A DNA stretch of 64,000 bases from Nitrospira sp. (lineage in GTDB: Bacteria; Nitrospirota; Nitrospiria; Nitrospirales; UBA8639). The notes under the pieces were generated by a model, which searched no databases, had not been told where the DNA came from, and saw only the letters and a program-made list of their open reading frames with translations. Below are positions 9,778-24,168 of the stretch, in pieces. Positions within the stretch are counted from its first letter, which is position 1. Every line of letters starts with the position of its first letter. The stretch is from positions 21,326-85,325 of the forward strand of contig WTGX01000005.1 of assembly GCA_011523385.1 (NCBI GenBank), read 5' to 3'. Both the position numbers and the translations under genes were made by a program.

Positions 9778-11160
9778 TCAGTACCTGTAGGTTTCCGGTT
9801 TGAACGGGCCTTCGACGGACACATTGATGTAGGAGGCCTGCTCTCCGGTGAGTTTGGTCAACGTCCCACCAAACCCGCGCACCATATGGGCGGCCACTTC
9901 CTCATCCAGCTTCTTCGGCAGCACTTCGACCGTGACCGGAGCCCCGGGAGTATCGGCGAATTTCTTTCCGAACAGATAAATTTGCGCCAGGACCTGGTTG
10001 GAAAAGGACCCGTCCATAATCCGGGAAGGATGACCGGTCGCATTGCCCAGATTCACCAGGCGTCCTTCGGACAGGAGGAGCAGGTGGTCGTTGGCAAGCG
10101 CGCTCCGATAGACTTTATGCACTTGTGGCTTGACTTCCTCCCACTCCCAACGTTTCCGCATGTAGGCCGTATCGATTTCATTGTCGAAATGGCCGATATT
10201 GCAGACCACGGCTCCCGGTTTGAGCGTTTGCAACATGGCGGCGTCACAGACGTTATAGTTGCCGGTAGCCGTCACGACCAGGTCCGTATTGCCCAACAGC
10301 GCCGCGTTGATGTCTTCCACTTTCCCCGTATTGATTCCATCGTTGTAGGGCGACACGACCTCAAAGCCGTCCATGCAGGCCTGCATCGCGCAAATGGGAT
10401 CGACTTCCGACACGCGCACGATCATGCCTTCCTGGCGCAGGGATTGGGCCGACCCTTTCCCCACGTCGCCATACCCCACCACCAGGGCTTTTTTCCCGGA
10501 TAAGAGGTGGTCCGTGCCACGCTTCACCGCATCGTTCAAACTGTGCCGGCATCCGTATTTATTGTCGTTTTTCGATTTCGTGACGGAATCGTTGACGTTG
10601 ATGACCGGCACTTTCAAGGTGCCGTTTTCCAGCCGCTCCTGCAGCCGGTGCACCCCCGTGGTGGTCTCTTCCGTGATGCCGTGGATTTTATCCAACATCG
10701 CCGGATACTTTTCGTGAAGCATCAGGGTCAAATCACCCCCGTCATCCAGGACCATGTTGGCGTCCCAGGGCCGGCCATCCTTCAGAATGGTCTGCTCGAT
10801 GCACCAGTCATATTCTTCGAGCGTTTCGCCTTTCCAGGCGTACACCGGAATGCCCCGGGCCGCGATCGCGGCCGCGGCGTGATCCTGTGTGGAGAAAATG
10901 TTGCACGAGGACCATCGCACTTCGGCCCCCAACTCCATCAGGGTTTCAATCAGGACGGCCGTCTGGATCGTCATATGAATGCACCCGAGAATCCTGGCAC
11001 CCTTGAGGGGCTGCGCCGCTCGATATTTCTCCCTCAAGGCCATCAAGCCGGGCATTTCCGTTTCGGCTATCTGAATCTCTTTCCGGCCCCAATCAGCCAA
11101 GCTGATATCCGCCACCTTATAATCACACACCGTATTCTCCAGTTGCGCGGTTGTACTCAT
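9778..11160 (-). CDS. ahcY: S-adenosylhomocysteine hydrolase
   Basis: The 460-residue enzyme splits S-adenosylhomocysteine into adenosine and homocysteine and so relieves product inhibition of methyltransferases. The sequence has the N-terminal [15 protein letters not shown] segment, the NAD-binding [12 protein letters not shown] and the conserved C-terminus KPETYRY. I start it at ATG 11160 ([18 protein letters not shown]) with GGGAG upstream. The frame stays open to 11304, but that extension is a partial duplication of the leader. It lies downstream of metK with a 153-base gap, so the pair could serve the methyl cycle together. Confidence 0.95.
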
Positions 11161-11165
11161 GCTTA

Positions 11166-11296
11166 TCGCTCCCTTCTGCTTGGACACTCCAGACTCCCTC
11201 GACGCACGAACAACGTCTTCACGAATAACGTCTTCACCGAAACTCGCGAACAAGGTGCGCCATGAGATCATCCTCGTCGCTCCCTTCTGCTTGGAC
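11166..11296. repeat. Duplicated 20-bp ribosome-binding-site segment before ahcY
   Basis: TCGCTCCCTTCTGCTTGGAC occurs at 11166-11185 and again, identical, at 11277-11296. On the minus strand it contains the GGGAG Shine-Dalgarno of ahcY. The upstream copy also precedes a start-like ATG. Between the copies AACGTCTTCAC is tandemly repeated. The arrangement looks like a local duplication within the metK-ahcY spacer. Confidence 0.7.
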
Positions 11297-11313
11297 TCGA
11301 TCAACCCTCAACG

Positions 11314-12471
11314 TCACAGGTACACGTCAACGGCCTGTTTCAAAATCGAGGCCTTATCCGTTTTTTCCCAGGTGAACCCCGGGCCGCTTCGCCCAAAGTG
11401 CCCGTAGGCAGCCGTCTGTTTATAAATAGGACGTCGCAGTTTCAAATAATCAATGATTCCACGCGGGGTCATCGGGAAATGTTTCCGGACCAGTTTGTCG
11501 ATGACCTCAATCGCGACTTTCTCCGTCCCTTTTGCGTCAACCAGCACGGAGACGGGCTCCGGCACCCCGATCGCATACGCCAATTGCACTTCACATTTCT
11601 CGGCCAATTTCGCCGCCACGATATTCTTGGCAATATACCGGGCCATGTACGACGCCGACCGGTCCACCTTACTGGGATCCTTGCCGGAAAAAGCCCCCCC
11701 GCCATGACTCCCCACGCCTCCATAGGTATCGACGATGATCTTGCGACCAGTCAACCCGGTATCACCCATGGGCCCCCCCGTCACGAACCGGCCCGTCGGG
11801 TTGATGTGAAACGTAACCTTGTTCGAGTTGAAGATCCCTTTCGGCATCACGGGTTTGATGACTTTTTCCTTAATTTCCTGCTCGATTTTCTTGGACGTCA
11901 CCTTGTCGCTATGCTGGGTGGAGACCACGATCGTATCAATGCGGACCGGCTTACCGTTCTTATACTCGACGGTCACCTGCGCCTTGCCGTCGGGTCGCAT
12001 CCAAGGCAACAGGTTCGTTTTTCTGACCTCGGCCAAGCGTTTCGTCAGGCGATGGGCCAACACGATCGGCATGGGCATCAATTCGCTCGTCTCGTTGGTG
12101 GCGTAGCCGAACATCAATCCCTGATCACCTGCTCCGCCGGTATCCACACCCATGGCAATATCACCTGATTGGGCATCAATCGCCGTCAACACCGAGCAGG
12201 TGCGGTAATCGAACCCCCACGTGGCATCGGTATAGCCCGCGTCACGGATGGTTTCTCGAATAATATCCGGTATTTCCACGTAGGCCTTCGTGGAAATTTC
12301 TCCCGCCACGAACGCCAAACCGGTCGTCAGAATCGTCTCACAGGCCACGCGGCAATTCTTATCCTTGGCCATAATGGCATCCAGGATGCCATCGGATATC
12401 TGGTCGGCGATTTTGTCCGGATGGCCCTCGGTCACGGACTCGGAGGTAAACAAAAAATTCTGTTGACTCAT
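11314..12471 (-). CDS. metK: S-adenosylmethionine synthetase
   Basis: The 385-residue enzyme makes SAM from methionine and ATP. It begins [24 protein letters not shown] in meaning, with the ATP-binding TEGHPDK near residue 16. The loop [12 protein letters not shown] and the glycine-rich [17 protein letters not shown] follow. I chose ATG 12471, which has AAGGAAAGGTGA just upstream and is the family start. The open frame reaches 13 codons further into the leader. Upstream lies an attenuator-like leader with its own promoter. The 3' neighbour is ahcY. Confidence 0.96.
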
Positions 12472-12497
12472 TACGGTCACCTTTCCTTGGCTCAATA

Positions 12498-12542
12498 AAC
12501 AAAAAGGCATCCCCTGTCCATCCTATCGGAGAGGAATGCCTT
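12498..12542 (-). terminator. Terminator hairpin inside the metK leader
   Basis: On the minus strand AAGGCATTCCTCT pairs with AGGGGATGCCTT and is followed by TTTTTGTTT, only about 27 bases before the metK start. Its place between promoter and gene suggests premature termination as a control. Confidence 0.7.
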
Positions 12543-13066: not shown

Positions 13067-15118
13067 ATGTATAAAACCATCTACATCCCGGTCGACAATT
13101 CCGACCATTCCAATATGGCCGTCGACCTGGGTGTGCGGTTGGCGCAGGAATTCGGATCGAAAATCGTCGGCAGCCACGTCTATGCCGCCAAGATGCACGA
13201 CAAGCGGTTCAAGCAGATGGAAGCGGGCCTGCCCGAAGAATATCACGACGAAAAAGAACTCGACCGCCAACGCAAGATTCACGACTCTCTCATCACACGC
13301 GGGCTCCAGATTATCACCGATTCCTACCTGGACTACGTGGACCAGAGGTGTACCGAGTCGAATCTCCCCCTGGAACGCCGGTCCCTCGAGGGTCGCAATT
13401 GGAAGGTGTTGGCCGAAGACATCAACGCCAACGCCTACGATCTGACCATTATGGGCTCGCTCGGCGTGGGCGCCGTGAAAGATTCCGTGATCGGCAGCAA
13501 TACCGAACGGGTCCTGCGCCGGGTGCGCAATTCGGACATGTTCGTCGTGAAAGACCTGAAGCCCATGAACGGGGGGAAAATCGTCGTGGCCGTGGACGGC
13601 AGCCCGTACAGCTTCGGCGGGTTGAAAACCGGCCTCGCCCTGGGTAAAGCCCTGAACAAACAGGTCGAGGCCATTTCCGCGTTCGATCCCTATTTCCACT
13701 ACGCCGCGTTCCACAGCATTTCCGGGGTCCTGAACGAAGAGGCAGGCAAGGTCTTTCGCTTCAAGGAACAGGAAAAATTGCACGAGGAAGTGATCGACAG
13801 CGGCCTGGCGAAAATTTACCAATCGCACCTGGATATTTCCCGCGAAGTGGCCCAGGAAGAGGGGTCGGACATCCGCACCACGCTCCTGGACGGCAAGGTA
13901 TTCGAGAAAGTCCTCCAGTACGTGCGCAAGGAGCAACCCTGGCTGCTGATCGTCGGGCGCATCGGCGTACACAGCGACGACGACATGGACATCGGCAGCA
14001 ACACCGAGAACCTGCTCCGGGCGGCTTCCTGCAACGTCCTGATTTCCAACAAGAAATTCGTGCCTCCCATCGACACCCAGGCGGAATACACCATCGCCTG
14101 GACCGAGGAAGCCCTGTTACGCATGGAAAAGGTGCCGGTCTTCGCGCGCGGGGTCGCCAAGACCGCGATTCACCGTTATGCCATTGAAAAAGGCCATACC
14201 ATCATCAGCAACTCGGTAGTGGACGACGCGGTGGGCGACATCCTGCCCAAGGGCGCCATGGACGCGATGAAAGCCCTGGGGGGCCAGCTCGACGAGGCGG
14301 GCATCGACCGCGACCGGATGCAGGCCGACGATGCCGTGGCCCAGGACCTCATGGGCTCGACCCTCAGCGGCATGGTCAATCAAGTGGTCGAGGAAAAGGA
14401 GCCCGTAGCGAATCCCGCGGTGAGCCCGTCCACGCAATCCTATCTGGACCGCATGGCCCAACCATATTACGTCTGCAACAGGTGCGGGTACATCGGAAAA
14501 GGCGCCCAACCCGTCAAATGCCCGATTTGCGGGGGAGCGGGCGACGACTTCAAGACCGTCGACAAGAGCGTGTTCGACGCCGCGGCCCAGCAGGAAGGGG
14601 TCCTGGAAACACAACTGGCGTACGACGACGTGCCCATGCAATGGACCAAGGACGCCAAGGAAGCCATCCGGGCGGTGCCCGCGGGGTTCCAGCGACGGCG
14701 CGCCAAGGCCAAGATCGAAAAGTCCGCGAGAAAACTCGGCATGACCACGATCACCCTGGAGTATGCCTCGCCCATGATCGACGAAGCCGCCAACGAAGAC
14801 TACACCCCGATTTTCGCCAACAAGGAGGCGGAAATGGAACAACCTGCCCCTCAGCCGAACGGGCCGAAGCCCCACTCTCCCTACGATTGGGAGCCCGAAG
14901 CCTTGCAACGCCTGGAACGCGCGCCCGAAGGGTTCATGCGCGATTGCACCCGGGCACTCATCATCAAGCACGCCGACAAGCTGGGGACCACCCGGATCAC
15001 CATCGACGTGGCGAACGAAGGGATCGAGCAGGCCAAGCAGACTATGGAAGAAGCCATGAAGTCCGGCAACGTCAAGGAAATCATCGCCAAACTGACCGGC
15101 GCGGGCGCCCAGCAATAG
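13067..15118 (+). CDS. Tandem UspA protein with rubredoxin and three PCP_red modules
   Basis: This 683-residue protein joins several domains. Two universal-stress-protein folds occupy residues 1-165 and about 168-335; each ends in a GSxxxSVIGSNTERVLR- or GSNTENLLR-like nucleotide-binding segment. Three short PCP_red-type modules, named after the C-terminus of light-independent protochlorophyllide reductase, begin near Trp345, Trp526 and Trp608. Between the first and second lies a rubredoxin/rubrerythrin-like iron site with Cys470, 473, 485 and 488. An AAGGAGG site precedes the ATG. It leads a three-gene operon with a radical SAM enzyme that carries the same module. A redox-sensing or tetrapyrrole-linked role is my inference. 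Confidence 0.85.
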   Translation: MYKTIYIPVDNSDHSNMAVDLGVRLAQEFGSKIVGSHVYAAKMHDKRFKQMEAGLPEEYHDEKELDRQRKIHDSLITRGLQIITDSYLDYVDQRCTESNLPLERRSLEGRNWKVLAEDINANAYDLTIMGSLGVGAVKDSVIGSNTERVLRRVRNSDMFVVKDLKPMNGGKIVVAVDGSPYSFGGLKTGLALGKALNKQVEAISAFDPYFHYAAFHSISGVLNEEAGKVFRFKEQEKLHEEVIDSGLAKIYQSHLDISREVAQEEGSDIRTTLLDGKVFEKVLQYVRKEQPWLLIVGRIGVHSDDDMDIGSNTENLLRAASCNVLISNKKFVPPIDTQAEYTIAWTEEALLRMEKVPVFARGVAKTAIHRYAIEKGHTIISNSVVDDAVGDILPKGAMDAMKALGGQLDEAGIDRDRMQADDAVAQDLMGSTLSGMVNQVVEEKEPVANPAVSPSTQSYLDRMAQPYYVCNRCGYIGKGAQPVKCPICGGAGDDFKTVDKSVFDAAAQQEGVLETQLAYDDVPMQWTKDAKEAIRAVPAGFQRRRAKAKIEKSARKLGMTTITLEYASPMIDEAANEDYTPIFANKEAEMEQPAPQPNGPKPHSPYDWEPEALQRLERAPEGFMRDCTRALIIKHADKLGTTRITIDVANEGIEQAKQTMEEAMKSGNVKEIIAKLTGAGAQQ

Positions 15119-15124
15119 GGAGCC

Positions 15125-16489
15125 ATGGGCAAATCACTCCCTGTCATCAATGCCCCGCAACGGGAAGGGCTCGACTCCCGCGTCACCGGGTTTGCCTCGC
15201 CTGGCGCCGGTCCCGGCGACGGCCGGACCGTCGATGATTTCAAGCCCTACCTCGTCGCCCTGAACCTCACCAAACGCTGCAACCTGAAGTGCGACCACTG
15301 TTACCTGGACGCCACCACCAAAGCCGGCGGAGGATCCGACGAGCTTTCGACGGAAGAATGCTACCGGCTGATCGACCAGATCGCCGAGGTCAATAAAGGC
15401 TGCCTGCTGGTCATCACCGGGGGCGAACCCCTGGTCCGGCCGGACATCCTGGACATCGCCCGTCACGCCGTGGCCCAGGGGTTCATGGTCGTGTTCGGCA
15501 CCAACGGCATGCTCATCAACGACCGCCTGGCCCGCGAACTCGTCGAGATCGGCGTCATGGGCATGGGCATCAGCATCGACTCCCTGGACGCGGGCAAACA
15601 CGACGCGTTTCGCGGCATACCCGGGGCCTGGGAGGCCGCGGTCGCGGGCATCGAAGCCTGCAAACGGAACGGCCTGCAATTCCAAGTGCATTTCAGCGCC
15701 CAACCCATGAACTACAAGGAACTGCCGGACGTCATCGACTGGGCCCACGACCTGGGCGCCCGCGTGCTGAACGTCTTCTTCATGGTCTGCACGGGCCGCG
15801 GCGAGGAACTGACCGACATCACCCCCGAACAGTACGAGGAGGTGCTGGCCTTCCTGGTGGAGAGCCAGGACCGGTACTCGGACATGCTGGTGCGCGCGCG
15901 GTGCGCCCCGCACTTCAAACGCCTCGCCTATGAAAAAGACCCAGACTCCCCGATCACCAAGGCCCAAGGGTACATGGGCGGGGGCTGCCTGGCCGGGACG
16001 AATTACGCGCGGGTTACGCCCAACGGGGACCTGACCCCCTGTCCCTACATGCCCCTGTCGGCCGGGAACATCAGGACCACGAGTTTCGTGGACCTGTGGG
16101 AGAAGTCGGACATCTTCGATTCGTTCCGGTATCCGCACCTGAAGGGCAAATGCGGCGACTGCGAATACAGCGATATCTGCGGCGGTTGCCGGGCGCGTCC
16201 CTACGTGGACCACGGGGACTGGATGGACGAGGACCAGTGGTGCCTGTATACACCCAAGGGCGGGGAAAAGATCCGGGTCGCGTTCAACGTGCCCGAGGAG
16301 GTCGAGGTGGAATGGGAGGAGGCCGCGCAGGCGCGGTTGAGCCGGATCCCCTACTTCCTGCGCGCCATGGTGAAAAAAGGCACCGAGCGGCACGCCCGCG
16401 AGCACAACGTCCCGCGCATCACCGTGGATCTGATGGAAGAGCTTCGCCAAAAACGCTTCGGTAACGAAAAACCGGTGTTCAAATTCTGA
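15125..16489 (+). CDS. Radical SAM/SPASM enzyme with C-terminal PCP_red module
   Basis: The 454-residue protein has the radical SAM cluster CNLKCDHC (Cys52, 56, 59), the SAM-binding ITGGEPL near residue 98 and a SPASM region rich in cysteine (GGGCLAGTN, CPYMP, KCGDCEYSDICGGC). This layout is that of heme-biosynthesis proteins NirJ and AhbD and of peptide-modifying enzymes. The last 55 residues from Trp397 (EWEEAAQARLSRIPYFLRAM) are a PCP_red module like those of the gene before it. It starts 6 bases after the upstream stop and its own stop overlaps the next start as TGATG. The substrate is unknown; a tetrapyrrole is the best guess. Confidence 0.85.
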   Translation: MGKSLPVINAPQREGLDSRVTGFASPGAGPGDGRTVDDFKPYLVALNLTKRCNLKCDHCYLDATTKAGGGSDELSTEECYRLIDQIAEVNKGCLLVITGGEPLVRPDILDIARHAVAQGFMVVFGTNGMLINDRLARELVEIGVMGMGISIDSLDAGKHDAFRGIPGAWEAAVAGIEACKRNGLQFQVHFSAQPMNYKELPDVIDWAHDLGARVLNVFFMVCTGRGEELTDITPEQYEEVLAFLVESQDRYSDMLVRARCAPHFKRLAYEKDPDSPITKAQGYMGGGCLAGTNYARVTPNGDLTPCPYMPLSAGNIRTTSFVDLWEKSDIFDSFRYPHLKGKCGDCEYSDICGGCRARPYVDHGDWMDEDQWCLYTPKGGEKIRVAFNVPEEVEVEWEEAAQARLSRIPYFLRAMVKKGTERHAREHNVPRITVDLMEELRQKRFGNEKPVFKF

Positions 16490-17016
16490 TGGATGCCCTC
16501 CTGGCCACGCTGTCCGATATCAACAAAATCATTCCCATTGTCAACCACTGGCTGCACCTGCTCTCCGCCGTCGTGTGGATCGGCGGGCTCGCCTTCCTGG
16601 TCATGGCGGTGACGCCGGGGCTGCAATCGTCCGTGCCCAGGGAATACATCAAGCCCATCTGCGACACGTTCTATAAACAGTATCGCAAGGTAGTGGGCAT
16701 GCTGCTGGTCGTGATTCTGTTCACGGGCGGCATCAACCTGCATTACGTGGGCGAAGCCATGGAAATGCAGACCGGCTTCGGCCTCTCCAACAACGCCAAG
16801 TATTTGACCGTCTTCTTCATCAAGCTCACCCTGGTGCTCGGCATCCTGACCCTGTTCCTCTACACCGTCATCTTCCGCATCGAACCCACGGGCGACGAAG
16901 ACGAACAGGAAAAAGAAGAACAGATTGTCGAACCCATCCCCTTCCAAAAAGCCGGCCTCTGGATGGGCGTCTTCATCATCCTCTGCGCCGCCGCCATGAA
17001 ACATTTGCATATGTAA
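16489..17016 (+). CDS. CopD-like integral membrane protein
   Basis: A 175-residue protein with four probable membrane helices (about residues 22-42, 66-88, 105-128 and 155-172). It resembles the copper-resistance D family: NHWLHLLSAVVWIGGLAFL opens it, with histidines that could bind a metal or heme, and a final MKHLHM repeats the pattern. An acidic cytoplasmic or periplasmic loop (GDEDEQEKEEQ) precedes the last helix. Its start overlaps the stop of the radical SAM gene, so the three genes are translationally linked. It could anchor the system to the membrane as a heme or copper protein, which is inference. Confidence 0.78.
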   Translation: MDALLATLSDINKIIPIVNHWLHLLSAVVWIGGLAFLVMAVTPGLQSSVPREYIKPICDTFYKQYRKVVGMLLVVILFTGGINLHYVGEAMEMQTGFGLSNNAKYLTVFFIKLTLVLGILTLFLYTVIFRIEPTGDEDEQEKEEQIVEPIPFQKAGLWMGVFIILCAAAMKHLHM

Positions 17017-17720: not shown

Positions 17721-20153
17721 ATGAATAAAAAAGACCTGAGCGAGCGCGACATTTGTACCAAGTTCATCACCCCGGCCCTGCGCAAGGCAGGCTGGGACGA
17801 GATGACGCAAATCCGCGAGGAGGTCAGTTTCACCAAGGGTCGCATCATCGTGCGCGGGAAGTTGGTCAGCAGGGGCAAGGCCAAGCGGGCTGACTACATC
17901 CTCTGTTACAAGCCCAACGTCCCCATTGCGGTGATCGAAGCCAAGGACAATACTCATGCCATCGGCGACGGCATGCAACAGGCCCTCGACTATGCCGAAA
18001 CGTTGCAGGCGCCCTTCGTCTTCTCCTCCAACGGTGATGGGTTCGTCTTCCATGACCGGAGCGGCACCGGCGTTGAAAAAGAAACCACGTTCGATAACGA
18101 TTCCTTCCCCTCGCCAAAAGACCTGTGGGCACGCTATTGCGCGTGGAAAGGCCTGACCGCCGAAGAAGAGGCCATCGTCCTTCAGGATTATTTTTACGAT
18201 GGCAGCGGCAAAACCCCGCGCTACTATCAGGTCAATGCCATCAACGCCGCCATCGAAGCCATCGCCAAAGGACGCAACCGCATTCTGCTTGTCATGGCGA
18301 CGGGAACCGGCAAAACCTACACCGCCTTTCAGATCATCTGGCGACTGTGGAAGGCAGGGCGCAAAAAACGAATCCTGTTCCTGGCTGACCGCAACGTGCT
18401 GGTGGACCAAACCATGGTCAACGACTTCCGGCCCTTTGGTCCGGCTATGACCAAGCTTTCGACCAGAGCGGGAACCATCGAACGCGACGACGGTTCCTCA
18501 GAGGACTCGCCTGCCACCGTCGGGCGTATCGATAAAGCCTACGAAGTCTATCTCAGCCTGTATCAGGCAATTACCGGACCGGAAGAACGCCAGAAGATAT
18601 TCCGCGAATTTTCACCCACCTTCTTCGACCTCATCGTGATTGATGAGTGTCACCGTGGCAGTGCCGCCGACGACTCGGCTTGGCGGGAAATCCTGGAATA
18701 CTTCACCACAGCCACGCAGATCGGCCTCACCGCCACGCCCAAGGAAACTCGTTACGTTTCCAACATCCATTACTTCGATGAGCCGGTCTACTCCTACTCC
18801 CTGAAACAGGGAATCAGGGACGGCTTCCTCGCCCCCTACAAAGTCATCAAAGTCCATATCGACCGGGACGTGGAAGGGTACCGGCCGGAAAAAGGCCAAC
18901 GCGACCGGAGCGGAAAAGAAATTGAAGACCGCATCTACAACACCAAAGATTTCGACCGTAACCTGGTGCTGGACGGCCGGACCAACGTCGTCGCCCGAAA
19001 GGTGACGGAATTCTTGCAGGAAAGCGGCGACCTCTTCCAGAAGACGATCATCTTCTGCGTCGACCAGGAACACGCCACACGCATGCGGCAGACGCTCGTC
19101 AACCAGAACGCTGGCTTGGTGGACCGAAACTACCGCTACGTGATGCGCATCACCGGCGACGACCCCGAAGGGCAAGCGGAATTGGGCAACTTCGTCGACC
19201 CGGAATCCAGATACCCCGTGCTGGTCACTACCTCGCGGCTGCTGTCCACGGGTGTCGATGTGCAAACGTGCAGGCTCATCGTGCTCGACCGTGAAGTCGG
19301 ATCCATGACCGAGTTCAAGCAGATACTCGGACGTGGCACCCGCGTACACGACGAAACGCACAAATTTTACTTCACCCTGATGGATTTTCGGGGTGCGACC
19401 AATCACTTCGCCGACCCGGATTTCGATGGTGAGCCGGTACAGATTTACGAACCGGGCGGAGGCGATTCCATCATGCCGCCTGACGACATGCCACCTAGAG
19501 ACGATGACGACGATCCCATCCCGGCGGAACCTGGGGAGGATGAAACCATCATCGATGACCCTCCCCCGCCGTATCCTCGCGATAGTCCGCGCAAAGTTTA
19601 CGTGGATGGTATCGAGGCCACAGTCATAGGCGAGCGGGTGGAACACCTCGATGAACACGGCAAATTGGTCACCGAGTCCTTGCGCGACTTCACCAAGAGG
19701 GCTCTGAAAAAGCGCTTCGCCAGCCTCGACGATTTCCTCCGGCACTGGGGAGCGGCAGAGCGCAAGCAGGCAATTGTCAAAGAACTGGAAGACGAGGGTC
19801 TGCGGCTCGATATTATCACCGAGGAACTGGGCAAAGACCTCGATCCCTTCGATCTCATCTGCCACGTCGCCTTTGACGCCAAGCCGCTCACCCGCCGCGA
19901 GCGCGCCGAGAACGTCAAGAAACGCGATGTGTTCAACAAATACGGGGAACAGGCCCGCGCCGTGCTCGACGCCCTGCTTGCCAAATACGCCGACCAAGGG
20001 GTGTTCAACTTGGATGACGTCAGCGTACTGCGCATCCCGCCGTTGACCGAAATCGGCACCCCGGTGCAGTTGATTAACGCCTTCGGCGGCAAGGACAAGT
20101 TCGTTGCCGCCGTGCACGACCTGCAAGCGGCGCTCTACCAGGAAATCGCGTAG
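17721..20153 (+). CDS. hsdR: Type I restriction enzyme, R subunit
   Basis: The 810-residue protein carries a PD-(D/E)xK nuclease at the N-terminus (Asp58 in ADYILCYK, then EAK at 73-75). A DEAD-like translocase follows with Walker A GTGKT near residue 195, DECH near 306 and the helicase segment GRGTRVHDETHKF. A C-terminal EcoEI-type domain completes it. The length fits the type IB (EcoAI/EcoEI) branch rather than the longer EcoKI type. It cuts unmodified DNA after translocation, together with HsdM and HsdS. It is followed by hsdM after 3 bases. All motifs are intact, so it should be active. Confidence 0.93.
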   Translation: MNKKDLSERDICTKFITPALRKAGWDEMTQIREEVSFTKGRIIVRGKLVSRGKAKRADYILCYKPNVPIAVIEAKDNTHAIGDGMQQALDYAETLQAPFVFSSNGDGFVFHDRSGTGVEKETTFDNDSFPSPKDLWARYCAWKGLTAEEEAIVLQDYFYDGSGKTPRYYQVNAINAAIEAIAKGRNRILLVMATGTGKTYTAFQIIWRLWKAGRKKRILFLADRNVLVDQTMVNDFRPFGPAMTKLSTRAGTIERDDGSSEDSPATVGRIDKAYEVYLSLYQAITGPEERQKIFREFSPTFFDLIVIDECHRGSAADDSAWREILEYFTTATQIGLTATPKETRYVSNIHYFDEPVYSYSLKQGIRDGFLAPYKVIKVHIDRDVEGYRPEKGQRDRSGKEIEDRIYNTKDFDRNLVLDGRTNVVARKVTEFLQESGDLFQKTIIFCVDQEHATRMRQTLVNQNAGLVDRNYRYVMRITGDDPEGQAELGNFVDPESRYPVLVTTSRLLSTGVDVQTCRLIVLDREVGSMTEFKQILGRGTRVHDETHKFYFTLMDFRGATNHFADPDFDGEPVQIYEPGGGDSIMPPDDMPPRDDDDDPIPAEPGEDETIIDDPPPPYPRDSPRKVYVDGIEATVIGERVEHLDEHGKLVTESLRDFTKRALKKRFASLDDFLRHWGAAERKQAIVKELEDEGLRLDIITEELGKDLDPFDLICHVAFDAKPLTRRERAENVKKRDVFNKYGEQARAVLDALLAKYADQGVFNLDDVSVLRIPPLTEIGTPVQLINAFGGKDKFVAAVHDLQAALYQEIA

Positions 20154-20156
20154 CCC

Positions 20157-21614
20157 ATGTCCGTCCGCAACCTCGTCAAAACCATTCAGGATATCATGCG
20201 TCAGGACTCCGGCGTGGACGGCGACGCCCAGCGCATCAGCCAGTTGTGCTGGATGTTCTTCCTCAAGATCATCGACGATAAGGACGAGGAACTCGAACTG
20301 ATGCAGCCGGGCTATGAATCCCCGGTCCCGGAGCGGTTCCGGTGGCGCGCATGGGCAGCCGACCCCGAGAGTATTACCGGCGAAGCATTGCTCGCCTTTA
20401 TCGACAACGATCTGTTCCCCGCCCTGAAGAAGATCCGGCCGACCGGTCAACATGCCAACCGCGCCCGCGTGGTGCGCGACGTGTTCAAGGACGCCAATAA
20501 CTACATGAAGTCCGGCCAATTGATGCGCCAAGTCGTCAACAAGATCAACGGCATCGACTTCAACAATCTGACCGAACGCCAGCACTTCGGCGACATCTAC
20601 GAACAGATCCTCAACGACCTGCAATCCGCAGGAAACGCAGGCGAGTACTACACGCCGCGAGCCGTTACCGCCTTCATGGCCGACCGCATCGATCCTAAAC
20701 CCGGGGAAACCCTGTTCGACCCTGCCTGCGGCACGGGCGGCTTCCTGACCTGCTCGCTACGCCACATGCGCGCCCGCTACGTCAAACAGCCTTCGGATGA
20801 ACCGAAGATGCAAGCCGCACTGCGCGCCGTAGAGAAGAAGCAACTGCCGCATATGCTGTGCGTCACCAACATGCTACTGCACGACATCGGGGATCCAAGC
20901 TTCGTCCGCCATGAGAACACCCTGGCGCGGCCCTACATCGGTTGGGAGCGGAAAGACCGGGTGGACATCGTGCTGACCAACCCGCCCTTTGGCGGCAAGG
21001 AAGAAGACGGGATCGAGAGCAACTTCCCCCAGCATTTCCGAACCAAGGAAACCGCAGACCTGTTCCTTGCCCTGATCGTTCGGCTGTTGAAGCCGGGCGG
21101 GCGGGCCGCAGTCGTCTTGCCAGACGGCTCCCTGTTTGGCGAAGGCGTCAAGACGCGGCTCAAGGAGCATCTCATGGAGGAGTGCAACCTGCACACCATC
21201 GTCCGCCTGCCCAACTCCGTGTTCAAGCCCTACGCCTCCATCGGCACCAACCTGCTGTTCTTCGAGAAAGGCGAAGCGACCAAGGATATCTGGTTCTACG
21301 AACACCTCGTCCCCGAAGGCCAGAAAGCCTACTCCATGACAAAGCCCATCAAGCTGGAACACCTGCAACCCTGCATCGACTGGTGGGGCGGTGCAACACG
21401 CAAAGGCCGCAAGGAAACGGACCGCGCGTGGAAGGTGACTGCTGAAAAGATCAAGTCGCGCGGATACAACCTCGACATCAAGAACCCGCACACAACCGAG
21501 GACGACCACGGTGACCCGCAGGAACTACTGGCAAAATTGGCCGCCGCCGAGGCCGAAGCAGCGTCGCTACGCGACCAATTGAAAGCGATTCTGGCAGAGG
21601 CATTGTTGCGATAG
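20157..21614 (+). CDS. hsdM: Type I restriction enzyme, M subunit
   Basis: A 485-residue adenine-N6 methyltransferase. The N-terminal helical domain (MSVRNLVKTIQDIMRQ) is followed by the SAM-binding FDPACGTGGF at about 187-196 and the catalytic NPPFGG near 275. The C-terminal part has a coiled segment (AKLAAAEAEAASLRDQLKAI) that probably contacts HsdS. It protects host DNA and forms M2S with HsdS. The start is 3 bases after the hsdR stop, consistent with coupling. The order R-M-S with toxin-antitoxin genes between M and S is unusual. Confidence 0.94.
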   Translation: MSVRNLVKTIQDIMRQDSGVDGDAQRISQLCWMFFLKIIDDKDEELELMQPGYESPVPERFRWRAWAADPESITGEALLAFIDNDLFPALKKIRPTGQHANRARVVRDVFKDANNYMKSGQLMRQVVNKINGIDFNNLTERQHFGDIYEQILNDLQSAGNAGEYYTPRAVTAFMADRIDPKPGETLFDPACGTGGFLTCSLRHMRARYVKQPSDEPKMQAALRAVEKKQLPHMLCVTNMLLHDIGDPSFVRHENTLARPYIGWERKDRVDIVLTNPPFGGKEEDGIESNFPQHFRTKETADLFLALIVRLLKPGGRAAVVLPDGSLFGEGVKTRLKEHLMEECNLHTIVRLPNSVFKPYASIGTNLLFFEKGEATKDIWFYEHLVPEGQKAYSMTKPIKLEHLQPCIDWWGGATRKGRKETDRAWKVTAEKIKSRGYNLDIKNPHTTEDDHGDPQELLAKLAAAEAEAASLRDQLKAILAEALLR

Positions 21615-21716
21615 AGGTGCAAGTGACGTTCAGCCAGCCGGAGCTTGCGGTACGTGAGACGCTTGAGTTGATTTTTCCTTCATTCCTCCGTATGTTAAAC
21701 CATGGAGGATTTATCG

Positions 21717-21971
21717 ATGCCACTGAATATCAAAGACGACGACACGCAAGCCTTGACAAAACGGCTCGCAAGCCTGACCGGAGAATCGTTGACCCAAGCC
21801 GTCAAACAAGCCGTCCGGGAAAGACTGGCGCAGGTGGAAAAAACCCGGCGTGCCATCCGGCTTGCCGATGAACTAGATCATATTGCTCTGCATTGCGCTG
21901 ATCTGCCTCGCCGCGACGGGCGAAGCGCGGAACAGATCATCGGTTACGACGAACGAGGCCTTCCGGTCTGA
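21717..21971 (+). CDS. VapB-like antitoxin
   Basis: An 84-residue protein (MPLNIKDDDTQALTKRLASL) of the Rv0623/PSK-like VapB family. The N-terminal dimerisation and DNA-binding part includes GESLTQAVKQAVRERL and the C-terminal half would wrap the toxin (GRSAEQIIGYDERGLPV). I chose ATG 21717 since GGAGG sits 9 bases upstream; the ATG at 21702 includes that site. The stop overlaps vapC as TGATG. The pair lies inside the hsd operon between hsdM and hsdS. Confidence 0.85.
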   Translation: MPLNIKDDDTQALTKRLASLTGESLTQAVKQAVRERLAQVEKTRRAIRLADELDHIALHCADLPRRDGRSAEQIIGYDERGLPV

Positions 21972-22396
21972 TGGTGATCGACACATCGGCACTCATCGCC
22001 ATCATGGAAAACGAACCGGAACGCCGCCGTTTCAATGAATTGATCGAAGCGGCGACAGCCACCTATGTCAGTGCCGCCAGCCTGCTCGAGACCCGGATGG
22101 TTCTGTTTGCCCGATCCGGCGACAGCGCAGTCATGGCGTTGGATGCCTTCCTGCTCAAGAGCCGCATGATCGTCATGGAGGTCTCTCCTCGTATCGCCGA
22201 CATAGCCTTCGATGCCTACCGGAGGTACGGTAAGGTCAGCGGTCATGAAGCAGCCCTGAACTATGGCGACTGCTTTTCTTACGCCTTGGCCAAGCATTTG
22301 GCCGCCCCACTTCTGTTCAAGGGTGGTGACTTTTCGAAAACGGACATCCGGTCGGCCGCAGACGAGCGCACGGAGCATCGACCGGTGGACCCGTAG
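21971..22396 (+). CDS. VapC-like PIN-domain ribonuclease toxin
   Basis: The 141-residue PIN protein has the acidic residues expected for Mg binding: Asp4 (VIDTSALIAI), Glu40 (LLETRMV) and Asp100 (NYGDCFSYALA), with Asp120 as a fourth candidate. VapC toxins usually cut tRNA or rRNA when freed from VapB. The last 15 residues (RSAADERTEHRPVDP) are a charged tail. It overlaps vapB and is followed after 80 bases by hsdS, so it may be co-transcribed with the restriction genes and could punish loss of the locus. Confidence 0.87.
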   Translation: MVIDTSALIAIMENEPERRRFNELIEAATATYVSAASLLETRMVLFARSGDSAVMALDAFLLKSRMIVMEVSPRIADIAFDAYRRYGKVSGHEAALNYGDCFSYALAKHLAAPLLFKGGDFSKTDIRSAADERTEHRPVDP

Positions 22397-22476
22397 CGGC
22401 AACTCCCAGTCTCCTGGCGACACGGAGATCTGATTTAATCGGGGATTCATTTTTCACCGGCCGGCATGTTGGCCCC

Positions 22477-24168
22477 ATGAACGCCCAACAGTTACTCACG
22501 CACTTCGACCATATCGCCGACGCCCCCGACGCCATCCCACGCCTGCGTCGCTTCATTCTCGACCTCGCCGTCCGCGGCAAGCTCGTTCCGCAAGACCCCA
22601 ACAATGAACCGGCGTCGGAGTTGCTGAAGCGCATCGCGACCGAGAAAGCGCGGTGGGTGAAGTCGGAGAAGATAAGGAAGTCCAAGCCTCTGCCACCTGT
22701 GACCGAAGATCCGTATGAGTTGCCGTTTAACTGGCTATGGACACGTATTCGAGAAGTAACGAGTGACAGGGGGCAGACTGTGCCAGACAGCCCGTTCACT
22801 TACATAGATGTCACGGCAATTGACAAAGAGGCAGGCTGCATAGCAGAGGCAAAGAGCTTATATGCGCATGAGGCACCAAGCCGTGCGCGAAAATTGATAA
22901 GAAAAGGCGATGTGATCTACTCTTGCGTCAGACCCTATCTTCTCAACATCGCGGTAGTAGATGAAGATCTAAAACCTGAGCCCATCGCCAGCACGGCTTT
23001 TGCCGTTCTGAATGGATTTGGTCTTGTGCTGGCACGATATCAATGGATTGTGCTTCGGAGCCCGTTTATAGTTGGCATTGTTGAAGCAAGTATGCGCGGT
23101 CAGGCTTATCCGGCTATAAACGACTCAGATTTTGCGCTTCTTCCGTTTCCCCTTCCACCCCTCGCCGAACAACACCGCATCGTCGCCAAAGTAGATGAAC
23201 TCATGGCCCTCTGCGACCGCCTAGAGGCCGCGCGAATGAAGCGAGAGGCGGCACGCGACCGAATGACGACAGCGAACCTCGCCCGTCTCAACGCACCCGA
23301 TCCTGACTTGGCGACATTTCAGAATCACGCAGCCTTCGTACTCAATAACCTCACCCCACTCACCAGCCGCCCCGACCAGATCAAAGCCCTCCGCCAAACC
23401 ATCCTCAACCTCGCCATCCGCGGCAAGCTCGTCCCACAAGATACGAATGACGAACCGGCTTCAGAGTTGTTGAAGCATAAAAAGATTTCAGTTCCAGACG
23501 CAGGCTCATTCGAGCTACCCAAATCGTGGGCTTGGGTGAACGTGGGTGCAGTAGCCGACTCCCGCCTTGGCAAGATGCTCGACAAAGCCAAGAACAAGGG
23601 AACGCCTCGTAAATATCTCCGCAACATCAACGTGAGATGGTTCGACTTTGATCTATCCAACCTGCTGGAAATGCAGTTTGAGGATTTGGAGCTTCCAGAG
23701 TTCACTCTCCAAGATGGCGATGTGTTGATATGCGAAGGGGGTGAACCCGGTCGAGCGGCGGTGTGGGACAACCGCAGGACCGACATCTACTTTCAGAAGG
23801 CAATTCATCGTGTTCGTTTTTTGGACTTCGTGGATAGCGAATTTTTTGTAAAGGCGCTACGGGCAAGTGCCGATGACGGACGTTTAGCGGAGTATTTCAC
23901 CGGAACTGGCATCAAACATTTCACAGGCAAGGGTCTTGCAAGGTACATTTTTCCTCTCCCCCCCCTCGCTGAACAACACCGCATCGTCGCCAAAGTCGAT
24001 GAACTGATGACGCTATGTAATCAAGTGGAAGCGAACTTGACCACTGATGATGAAACACGAGGGCGCTTGGTTGAGGCGATGTTGAATGAGGCACTGCTGA
24101 CGGACACTCCAGTGCAAGAGAGAATCTCTGCGGACATCCCAGCTATATCTGTTATTCGGAACGCTTGA
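22477..24168 (+). CDS. hsdS: Type I restriction enzyme, specificity subunit
   Basis: A 563-residue protein with two target-recognition domains. Each half starts with a FILDLAVRGKLVPQD- or TILNLAIRGKLVPQD-type helix (near residues 25 and 308). Each then has a variable domain and ends in PLPPLAEQHRIVAKVDELM (near 230 and 495), the conserved helix pair. It selects the bipartite DNA sequence for methylation and cleavage. The matching repeats are also alike at DNA level. No frameshift or truncation is visible. A SEFIR remnant follows 15 bases downstream. Confidence 0.93.
   Translation: MNAQQLLTHFDHIADAPDAIPRLRRFILDLAVRGKLVPQDPNNEPASELLKRIATEKARWVKSEKIRKSKPLPPVTEDPYELPFNWLWTRIREVTSDRGQTVPDSPFTYIDVTAIDKEAGCIAEAKSLYAHEAPSRARKLIRKGDVIYSCVRPYLLNIAVVDEDLKPEPIASTAFAVLNGFGLVLARYQWIVLRSPFIVGIVEASMRGQAYPAINDSDFALLPFPLPPLAEQHRIVAKVDELMALCDRLEAARMKREAARDRMTTANLARLNAPDPDLATFQNHAAFVLNNLTPLTSRPDQIKALRQTILNLAIRGKLVPQDTNDEPASELLKHKKISVPDAGSFELPKSWAWVNVGAVADSRLGKMLDKAKNKGTPRKYLRNINVRWFDFDLSNLLEMQFEDLELPEFTLQDGDVLICEGGEPGRAAVWDNRRTDIYFQKAIHRVRFLDFVDSEFFVKALRASADDGRLAEYFTGTGIKHFTGKGLARYIFPLPPLAEQHRIVAKVDELMTLCNQVEANLTTDDETRGRLVEAMLNEALLTDTPVQERISADIPAISVIRNA
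23159..24009 (+). repeat. Paired 47-bp repeats within hsdS
   Basis: The segment at 23159-23205 (CCCTCGCCGAACAACACCGC onward) recurs at 23963-24009 with only three differences by eye. A second pair lies at about 22562-22628 and 23410-23476. They border the two target-recognition domains. Confidence 0.8.

Follow-up and report, generated by a model that had tools for sequence, protein, structure and literature searches.

Three adjoining genes in a 64,000-nucleotide stretch of a Nitrospira sp. genome (assembly GCA_011523385.1, contig WTGX01000005.1, forward-strand positions 21,326 to 85,325; the whole stretch is referred to below as the window) are read on the + strand and encode a tandem universal stress protein (Usp) that also carries a rubredoxin-like knuckle and three PCP_red modules (683 amino acids; positions 13067..15118), an AhbD/NirJ2-like radical SAM (S-adenosylmethionine)/SPASM enzyme with a PCP_red module at its C-terminus (454 amino acids; 15125..16489), and a small, weakly CopD/DUF4149-like membrane protein (175 amino acids; 16489..17016), as judged from their open reading frames, Pfam and, for the enzyme, NCBIfam. 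The present analysis shows that the enzyme is tied to bd-like oxidases by genomic presence and linkage, and the trio is probably an undescribed helper system for these oxidases. We tentatively propose that a maturation system for cytochrome bd-like (CydA-like, OR-N-type) oxidases exists across the Nitrospirota and that the trio is its form in Nitrospirales; a class of substrate and a direction of transfer are inferred.

A heme-copper oxidase is missing from most Nitrospira, whose respiration is believed to run through bd-like OR-N oxidases of unproven biochemistry (PMC6606698, PMC12342949). Nitrospina and anammox bacteria reportedly have a bd-like gene cluster in common with Nitrospira (PMC6606698). 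CydAA' oxidases of this OR-N type have been proposed for Nitrospirales (PMC12342949, PMC6606698) and are the proposed client of the trio; heme-copper oxidases were absent from most of the Nitrospirales genomes that we searched. No maturation factors for OR-N-type bd-like oxidases were found described in the literature searched, and a search on PCP_red or PCP reductase together with radical SAM or Usp returned nothing relevant, in keeping with the original prediction that no system with this set of proteins had been described. Genetic manipulation of Nitrospira is not yet possible (PMC12324825); the conserved candidate helper genes would make up a co-expression list for attempts to produce an OR-N oxidase in a laboratory host.

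Conservation of the trio and its link to bd-like oxidases

The three reading frames are closely spaced, with a 6-nucleotide gap between the first and the second and a TGATG stop/start overlap between the second and the third. By Pfam, the order of domains is Usp-Usp-PCP_red-rubredoxin knuckle-PCP_red-PCP_red in the first protein and radical SAM-SPASM-PCP_red in the second. The reading frames, spacing and modules put forward in the original prediction were borne out by the open reading frame check and by Pfam, the profile search finding every PCP_red module predicted, at Trp345, Trp526 and Trp608 and at the radical SAM C-terminus. Our survey covered the Nitrospirota, to which all 80 loci listed in the scan of named genomes belong. 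Among the Nitrospirales loci of the scan the trio was complete and co-oriented in all 64 with enough contig (64/64), identity to the window not falling below 81% (enzyme), 66% (Usp protein) and 59% (membrane protein), so that the expected conserved, operon-like unit is supported by the gene-neighbourhood survey. The conservation of the trio is well beyond chance. The enzyme was present in 55/60 genomes of the relatives searched; in one of the genomes without it (G041) the contig ends within the Usp gene. Further afield, PCP_red-tailed enzymes are found in some other Nitrospiria families (54-61% identity) and in approximately ten more Nitrospirota families (40-57%). Where the flank is long enough, tblastn almost always places a tandem-Usp gene next to the enzyme gene, L120, L121 and L137 having no such neighbour. 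The membrane protein gene lies beside this pair in Nitrospirales, L118 and L119 only. The ancestral core of the system is the pair of tandem Usp and radical SAM-PCP_red proteins.

The association with bd-like oxidases was examined in 246 genomes using a CydA-like query taken from a locus in which it is linked to the pair. The CydA-like gene occurs throughout the 101 genomes of the class Nitrospiria. Among the 145 Nitrospirota genomes outside this class it was found in 19, all of which (19/19) also have the radical SAM-PCP_red gene, which occurs in only 3/126 of those without a CydA-like match, the other 123 having neither (p 5.5e-21, a value which, like the p-value given below for genomes with a heme-copper oxidase, overstates the association because species are not independent). 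The safer figure comes from within families in which the trait is mixed, for which the product of the within-family probabilities is 1.4e-5. A generic marker of oxygen respiration was considered and rejected, because COX1 of the heme-copper oxidases, present in 22/22 enzyme carriers outside Nitrospiria, is also present in 70/123 non-carriers, and such a marker leaves the bd-like link unexplained; among genomes with a heme-copper oxidase the bd-like association is still found (p 7e-17). In family f27 the enzyme and CydA-like genes are mostly far apart (approx. 516 kb in G115) or on separate contigs, indicating that the association is more than the co-transfer of one cluster.

Physical linkage is also observed. 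In six distant loci (L125, L128, L131, L132, L135 and L138) a CydA-like gene lies within approximately 4 kb of the pair, and in L180 the trio, a gene for a protein with four PCP_red repeats, a zinc-ribbon PCP_red gene and a bd-like oxidase fall within approximately 17 kb, together with genes for an iron-containing redox enzyme, the Mrp-type Fe-S carrier Mrp/NUBPL, DUF420, a thioredoxin-like protein and cytochromes c (neighbours in distant loci were named by Pfam where it is cited and otherwise from the sequence by eye). In the window's genome the pieces of an L180-type locus are scattered, with some neighbours still together (L115, L117). The suggestion that the trio is tied to stress or redox state therefore needs narrowing: the genomic tie that we find is to bd-like oxidases, and not to stress in general. 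As a separate observation, the window's genome has two bd-like oxidase genes with two FGE-sulfatase-domain proteins encoded between them (L117:2744-4606).

The radical SAM enzyme and its probable substrate

The trio enzyme and AhbD, the coproheme decarboxylase, are sister paralogs. Its best NCBIfam profile scores are with NirJ2 (TIGR04055, 331.7 bits) and AhbD (heme b synthase, TIGR04545, 315.9 bits), the equivalog cut-off of 500 bits being reached for neither, and in our tree the PCP_red clade adjoins the AhbD-like enzymes of anaerobic Nitrospirota, with which the trio enzyme has 37-41% identity. The radical SAM core (residues 47-206; + strand, 15263..15742; E 1.8e-23) carries the CxxxCxxC motif as C52, C56 and C59, and is followed by the SPASM domain (E 1.1e-9); the auxiliary cluster region (+ strand, 15902..16243) holds C260, C288, C306, C343, C346, C352, C355 and C373. 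These eight cysteines are invariant in 24/24 sequences and common to AhbD-like enzymes, and the three of the SAM cluster are kept in all 24 wherever the sequence extends that far. All 11 cluster cysteines are hence conserved, and the enzyme is read as having one SAM cluster and, probably, two auxiliary [4Fe-4S] clusters. Against this shared radical SAM/SPASM fold and cysteine set, the trio enzyme differs from AhbD and NirJ2 in forming a separate clade, in its C-terminal PCP_red module and tandem Usp partner, and in the residues Y60, S153, C222, Y294 and R296, which are uniformly unlike those of AhbD-like enzymes in the 24-sequence alignment (R to Y60, G to S153, P to C222, I/L to Y294/R296).

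The PCP_red tail (residues 397-441; + strand, 16313..16447) scores 59.2 bits in the genome search and 53.9 bits (E 1.8e-14, cut-off 32.5) in the protein Pfam scan. This module is otherwise best known from BchB/ChlB of the dark-operative protochlorophyllide reductase, and it forms three helices in the model. The likeness goes no further than the module: the trio proteins have no nitrogenase-like catalytic domains, and only the C-terminal part of BchB/ChlB is matched, starting at profile position 455 (TIGR01278) or 477 (NF002789) with 58-67 bits against cut-offs of 490-509. The kinship with AhbD, taken together with the presence of PCP_red, makes a tetrapyrrole the probable class of substrate. 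The nearest relatives, AhbD and NirJ2, act on tetrapyrroles (PMC7242693), and an enzyme of this kind would widen the AhbD/NirJ group past the known heme routes.

The Usp protein, the PCP_red modules and the membrane protein

The N-terminal half of the 683-residue protein consists of two Usp domains (Pfam, E 7.8e-31), namely repeat 1 (approx. residues 1-165; + strand, 13067..13561) and repeat 2 (residues 171-326; + strand, 13577..14044). Both have an ATP-type motif (G-2x-G-9x-GS in repeat 1), and the structure model matches tandem universal stress proteins with E values of approximately 1e-14 to 1e-12, the tandem Usp fold alone emerging from the fold search; domain count, motif and fold thus agree on a tandem Usp, and motif and fold suggest that the protein may bind ATP. 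In an alignment of 18 distant members, an H44...F48...Q68...H72 element in repeat 1 is echoed by H211...F215...Q235...H239 in repeat 2, and the invariant pairs H44/H72 and H211/H239 could form a metal or heme site. Like Rv2623, UspE and TTHA0350, the protein has two Usp repeats with ATP-type motifs, but it is unlike them in having this H...F...Q...H element conserved in both repeats, a rubredoxin knuckle, three PCP_red modules and a conserved radical SAM neighbour.

The three PCP_red modules (Pfam PF08369) give 107.4 bits and E 3.6e-31 for the whole protein (cut-off 32.5), with 52.3 bits for module 1 (residues 345-388; + strand, 14099..14230), 41.8 bits for module 2 (W526; 14642..14761, + strand) and 31.4 bits, alone just below the cut-off, for module 3 (W608; 14888..15013, + strand). 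The rubredoxin-like Cys4 knuckle between modules 1 and 2 (residues 468-495; + strand, 14468..14551) has C470, C473, C485 and C488 invariant in 29 sequences, and the PF21349 profile scores it at 22.1 bits in the protein Pfam scan and 27.3 in the genome search (cut-off 26.5); a role for it in electron transfer is conceivable.

We sought PCP_red in distant relatives with a profile built from the modules. Every enzyme of the trio clade has one at its C-terminus, L122 having at least three. In the Usp partner the number ranges from zero (L127, L128, L131-L136 and L138-L142) through two (L123-L125) to three together with the rubredoxin knuckle (L119, L129 and Nitrospirales). Since the Usp partner of distant relatives lacks the module that the enzyme always has, the enzyme tail is probably the older state, the modules and rubredoxin of the Usp protein having been added later. 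The idea that a module shared by enzyme and partner implies the same ligand accordingly needs revising: both proteins do carry it, but on the Usp protein it appears to be a later elaboration and not the core of the system. The window's genome encodes 12 PCP_red modules in five open reading frames, those of the Usp protein, the radical SAM enzyme, a four-repeat protein and two zinc-ribbon proteins, of which one gene adjoins Mrp/NUBPL and the other adjoins DUF420 and bd-like oxidase genes. As PCP_red also turns up in this genome in zinc-ribbon proteins and in proteins made of repeats only, it may serve for docking and not for holding a ligand.

The small membrane protein had been described as CopD-like and histidine-bearing. 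The histidines are secure, H20, H23 and H174 being invariant in 35 sequences, but the CopD assignment is not, at 23.9 bits against a Pfam cut-off of 32.1 and 35.8 bits against an NCBIfam cut-off of 195. Its structure model is all-helical and of low confidence (predicted local distance difference test score, 70.7) and had no match in the PDB below E 1, so that a CopD identity on structural grounds was dropped. The histidines may carry heme. In many anaerobic Nitrospirota the corresponding position, 3' of the radical SAM gene, is occupied by a PNPOx-like (split-barrel) gene (L125, L127, L131, L133, L134, L136, L139 and L142).

Proposed role in oxidase maturation and competing explanations

The maturation reading is put forward because a conserved AhbD-derived enzyme and an ATP-binding-type scaffold are tied by presence and linkage to the oxidases, and because they share loci with likely assembly genes (Mrp/NUBPL, DUF420 and thioredoxin-like). 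In such a system, the enzyme would either alter the ring or a side chain of an iron tetrapyrrole by radical chemistry or pass such a molecule on, with the bd-like oxidases or their cytochrome partners as recipients. The tandem Usp protein would be an ATP-binding scaffold gating the enzyme; in its Nitrospirales-type members the rubredoxin knuckle would serve for the passage of electrons and the PCP_red repeats would dock the enzyme, the ligand or other PCP_red proteins, and the small histidine-bearing membrane protein would act as membrane acceptor. A narrower version, in which the bd-like OR-N oxidases receive from the enzyme a specially tailored heme, or another tetrapyrrole, handed over on the Usp/PCP_red scaffold, is possible though doubtful; if true, nitrite-oxidizing and comammox Nitrospira would have a prosthetic-group pathway dedicated to their terminal oxidase.

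Several observations weigh against oxidase maturation or against a tetrapyrrole as substrate. Three genomes (G061, G067 and G240) have the enzyme without a CydA-like match, and, as the query came from a linked locus, the near-identical linked CydA-like matches do not count as evidence separate from the linkage. Within the Nitrospiria, bd-like genes but no full-length radical SAM-PCP_red match were found in families f7, f10, f11 and f12 and in part of f9, so that the oxidase does not always depend on the enzyme. In the window's genome the trio is not adjacent to a bd-like gene, PCP_red repeats occur in proteins without a tetrapyrrole enzyme, and no hem gene was noticed directly adjacent to the pair in the surveyed loci. 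Finally, some pairs adjoin other respiratory genes, namely molybdopterin oxidoreductases and a NirJ-bearing cluster. At L140:5325-12400 and L141:2451-9536 the pair lies directly 5' of genes for two c-type cytochromes and a NirJ-like radical SAM protein, a set identified by eye that could be a cluster for heme d1 nitrite reductase.

The main rival to a tetrapyrrole substrate is that the enzyme modifies a protein or peptide, be it a bd-like oxidase subunit, a c-type cytochrome or the Usp protein, PCP_red being a docking tag only. Peptides are the substrates of many SPASM enzymes that have two auxiliary clusters, the solved structures matched by our enzyme include PqqE and SkfB, PCP_red is found in the non-enzymatic zinc-ribbon and repeat proteins, and the way in which the Usp protein has gained modules resembles a growing scaffold. 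We nevertheless consider it unlikely, as the nearest family profiles are AhbD and NirJ2 and not any peptide maturase, and no conserved small precursor reading frame was noticed beside the genes, although no systematic search was made. Less likely still is that the Usp-rubredoxin protein is an ATP/redox-sensing regulator of the respiratory chain, for which the enzyme makes or removes a signal ligand. The invariant histidine pairs in both Usp repeats could bind metal or heme, and in N. marina four UspA proteins adjoining induced operons are up at low O2 (PMC8115632), a response not shown to involve the trio's protein. However, the Pfam scan finds no DNA-binding or kinase domain in the Usp protein, its ancestral form lacks the rubredoxin, and its strict pairing with the enzyme down to 40% identity is more in keeping with catalysis than with signalling.

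Two further explanations were rejected. That the trio belongs to methyl-plastoquinone biosynthesis was suggested by its position directly 3' of mpqE and/or a B12-binding radical SAM gene in 44/57 testable Nitrospirales loci, but mpqE is on a different contig from the trio in the window's genome, and the two distributions differ, with MpqE and no enzyme in f13, f21, f7, f10 and others and the reverse in f14, f18, f27 and others, which makes a common pathway very improbable. Least probable of all is the true AhbD function, coproheme decarboxylation in core heme synthesis, even though AhbD is among the closest families by sequence and has an identical set of cysteines. The coproporphyrin route to heme is completed by AhbD or ChdC (PMC7242693), and a ChdC-family protein was present in 12/13 genomes (the window's own and those of relatives). 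Elsewhere in the Nitrospirota, the trio-type enzyme coexists with a distinct, short AhbD-like enzyme encoded next to hemE/hemH (identified by eye); the trio-type enzyme itself was not seen beside hem genes and scores 316 bits against the 500-bit cut-off. As hem-linked AhbD-like genes or ChdC are available, core heme synthesis does not require the trio enzyme.

Some minor observations were made on these pathways and on the neighbourhood of the trio. In anaerobic Nitrospirota (L145-L155), AhbD-like radical SAM genes lie next to hemE and hemH, which suggests a coproporphyrin pathway ending with AhbD in place of ChdC. Among nine genomes of the window's genus (G000 and eight others), Pfam ferrochelatase was found in none, protoporphyrinogen/coproporphyrinogen oxidase in 9/9 and a ChdC-family protein in 8/9; hemE and hemY are direct neighbours in this genus (L167:6050-8573), and hemH lies beside hemY in sister families. 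A pair of mpqE closely followed by an slr0320-like B12-binding radical SAM gene is kept in several Nitrospirales loci, including L144:6132-8546 (window's genome, G000 contig C10) and L066:3161-5724, where mpqE exceeds the NCBIfam cut-off for methyl-plastoquinone methyltransferase, and could supply a ring methylation of methyl-plastoquinone. Scans for promoters, terminators and repeats gave nothing informative. Type I restriction-modification-like genes (identified by eye) lie just 3' of the trio at window positions 17721-24165 and were not seen in the related loci examined. Divergent from the trio, at 9778-12510, are adenosylhomocysteinase and S-adenosylmethionine synthase genes (identified by eye), which also precede it in several related loci.

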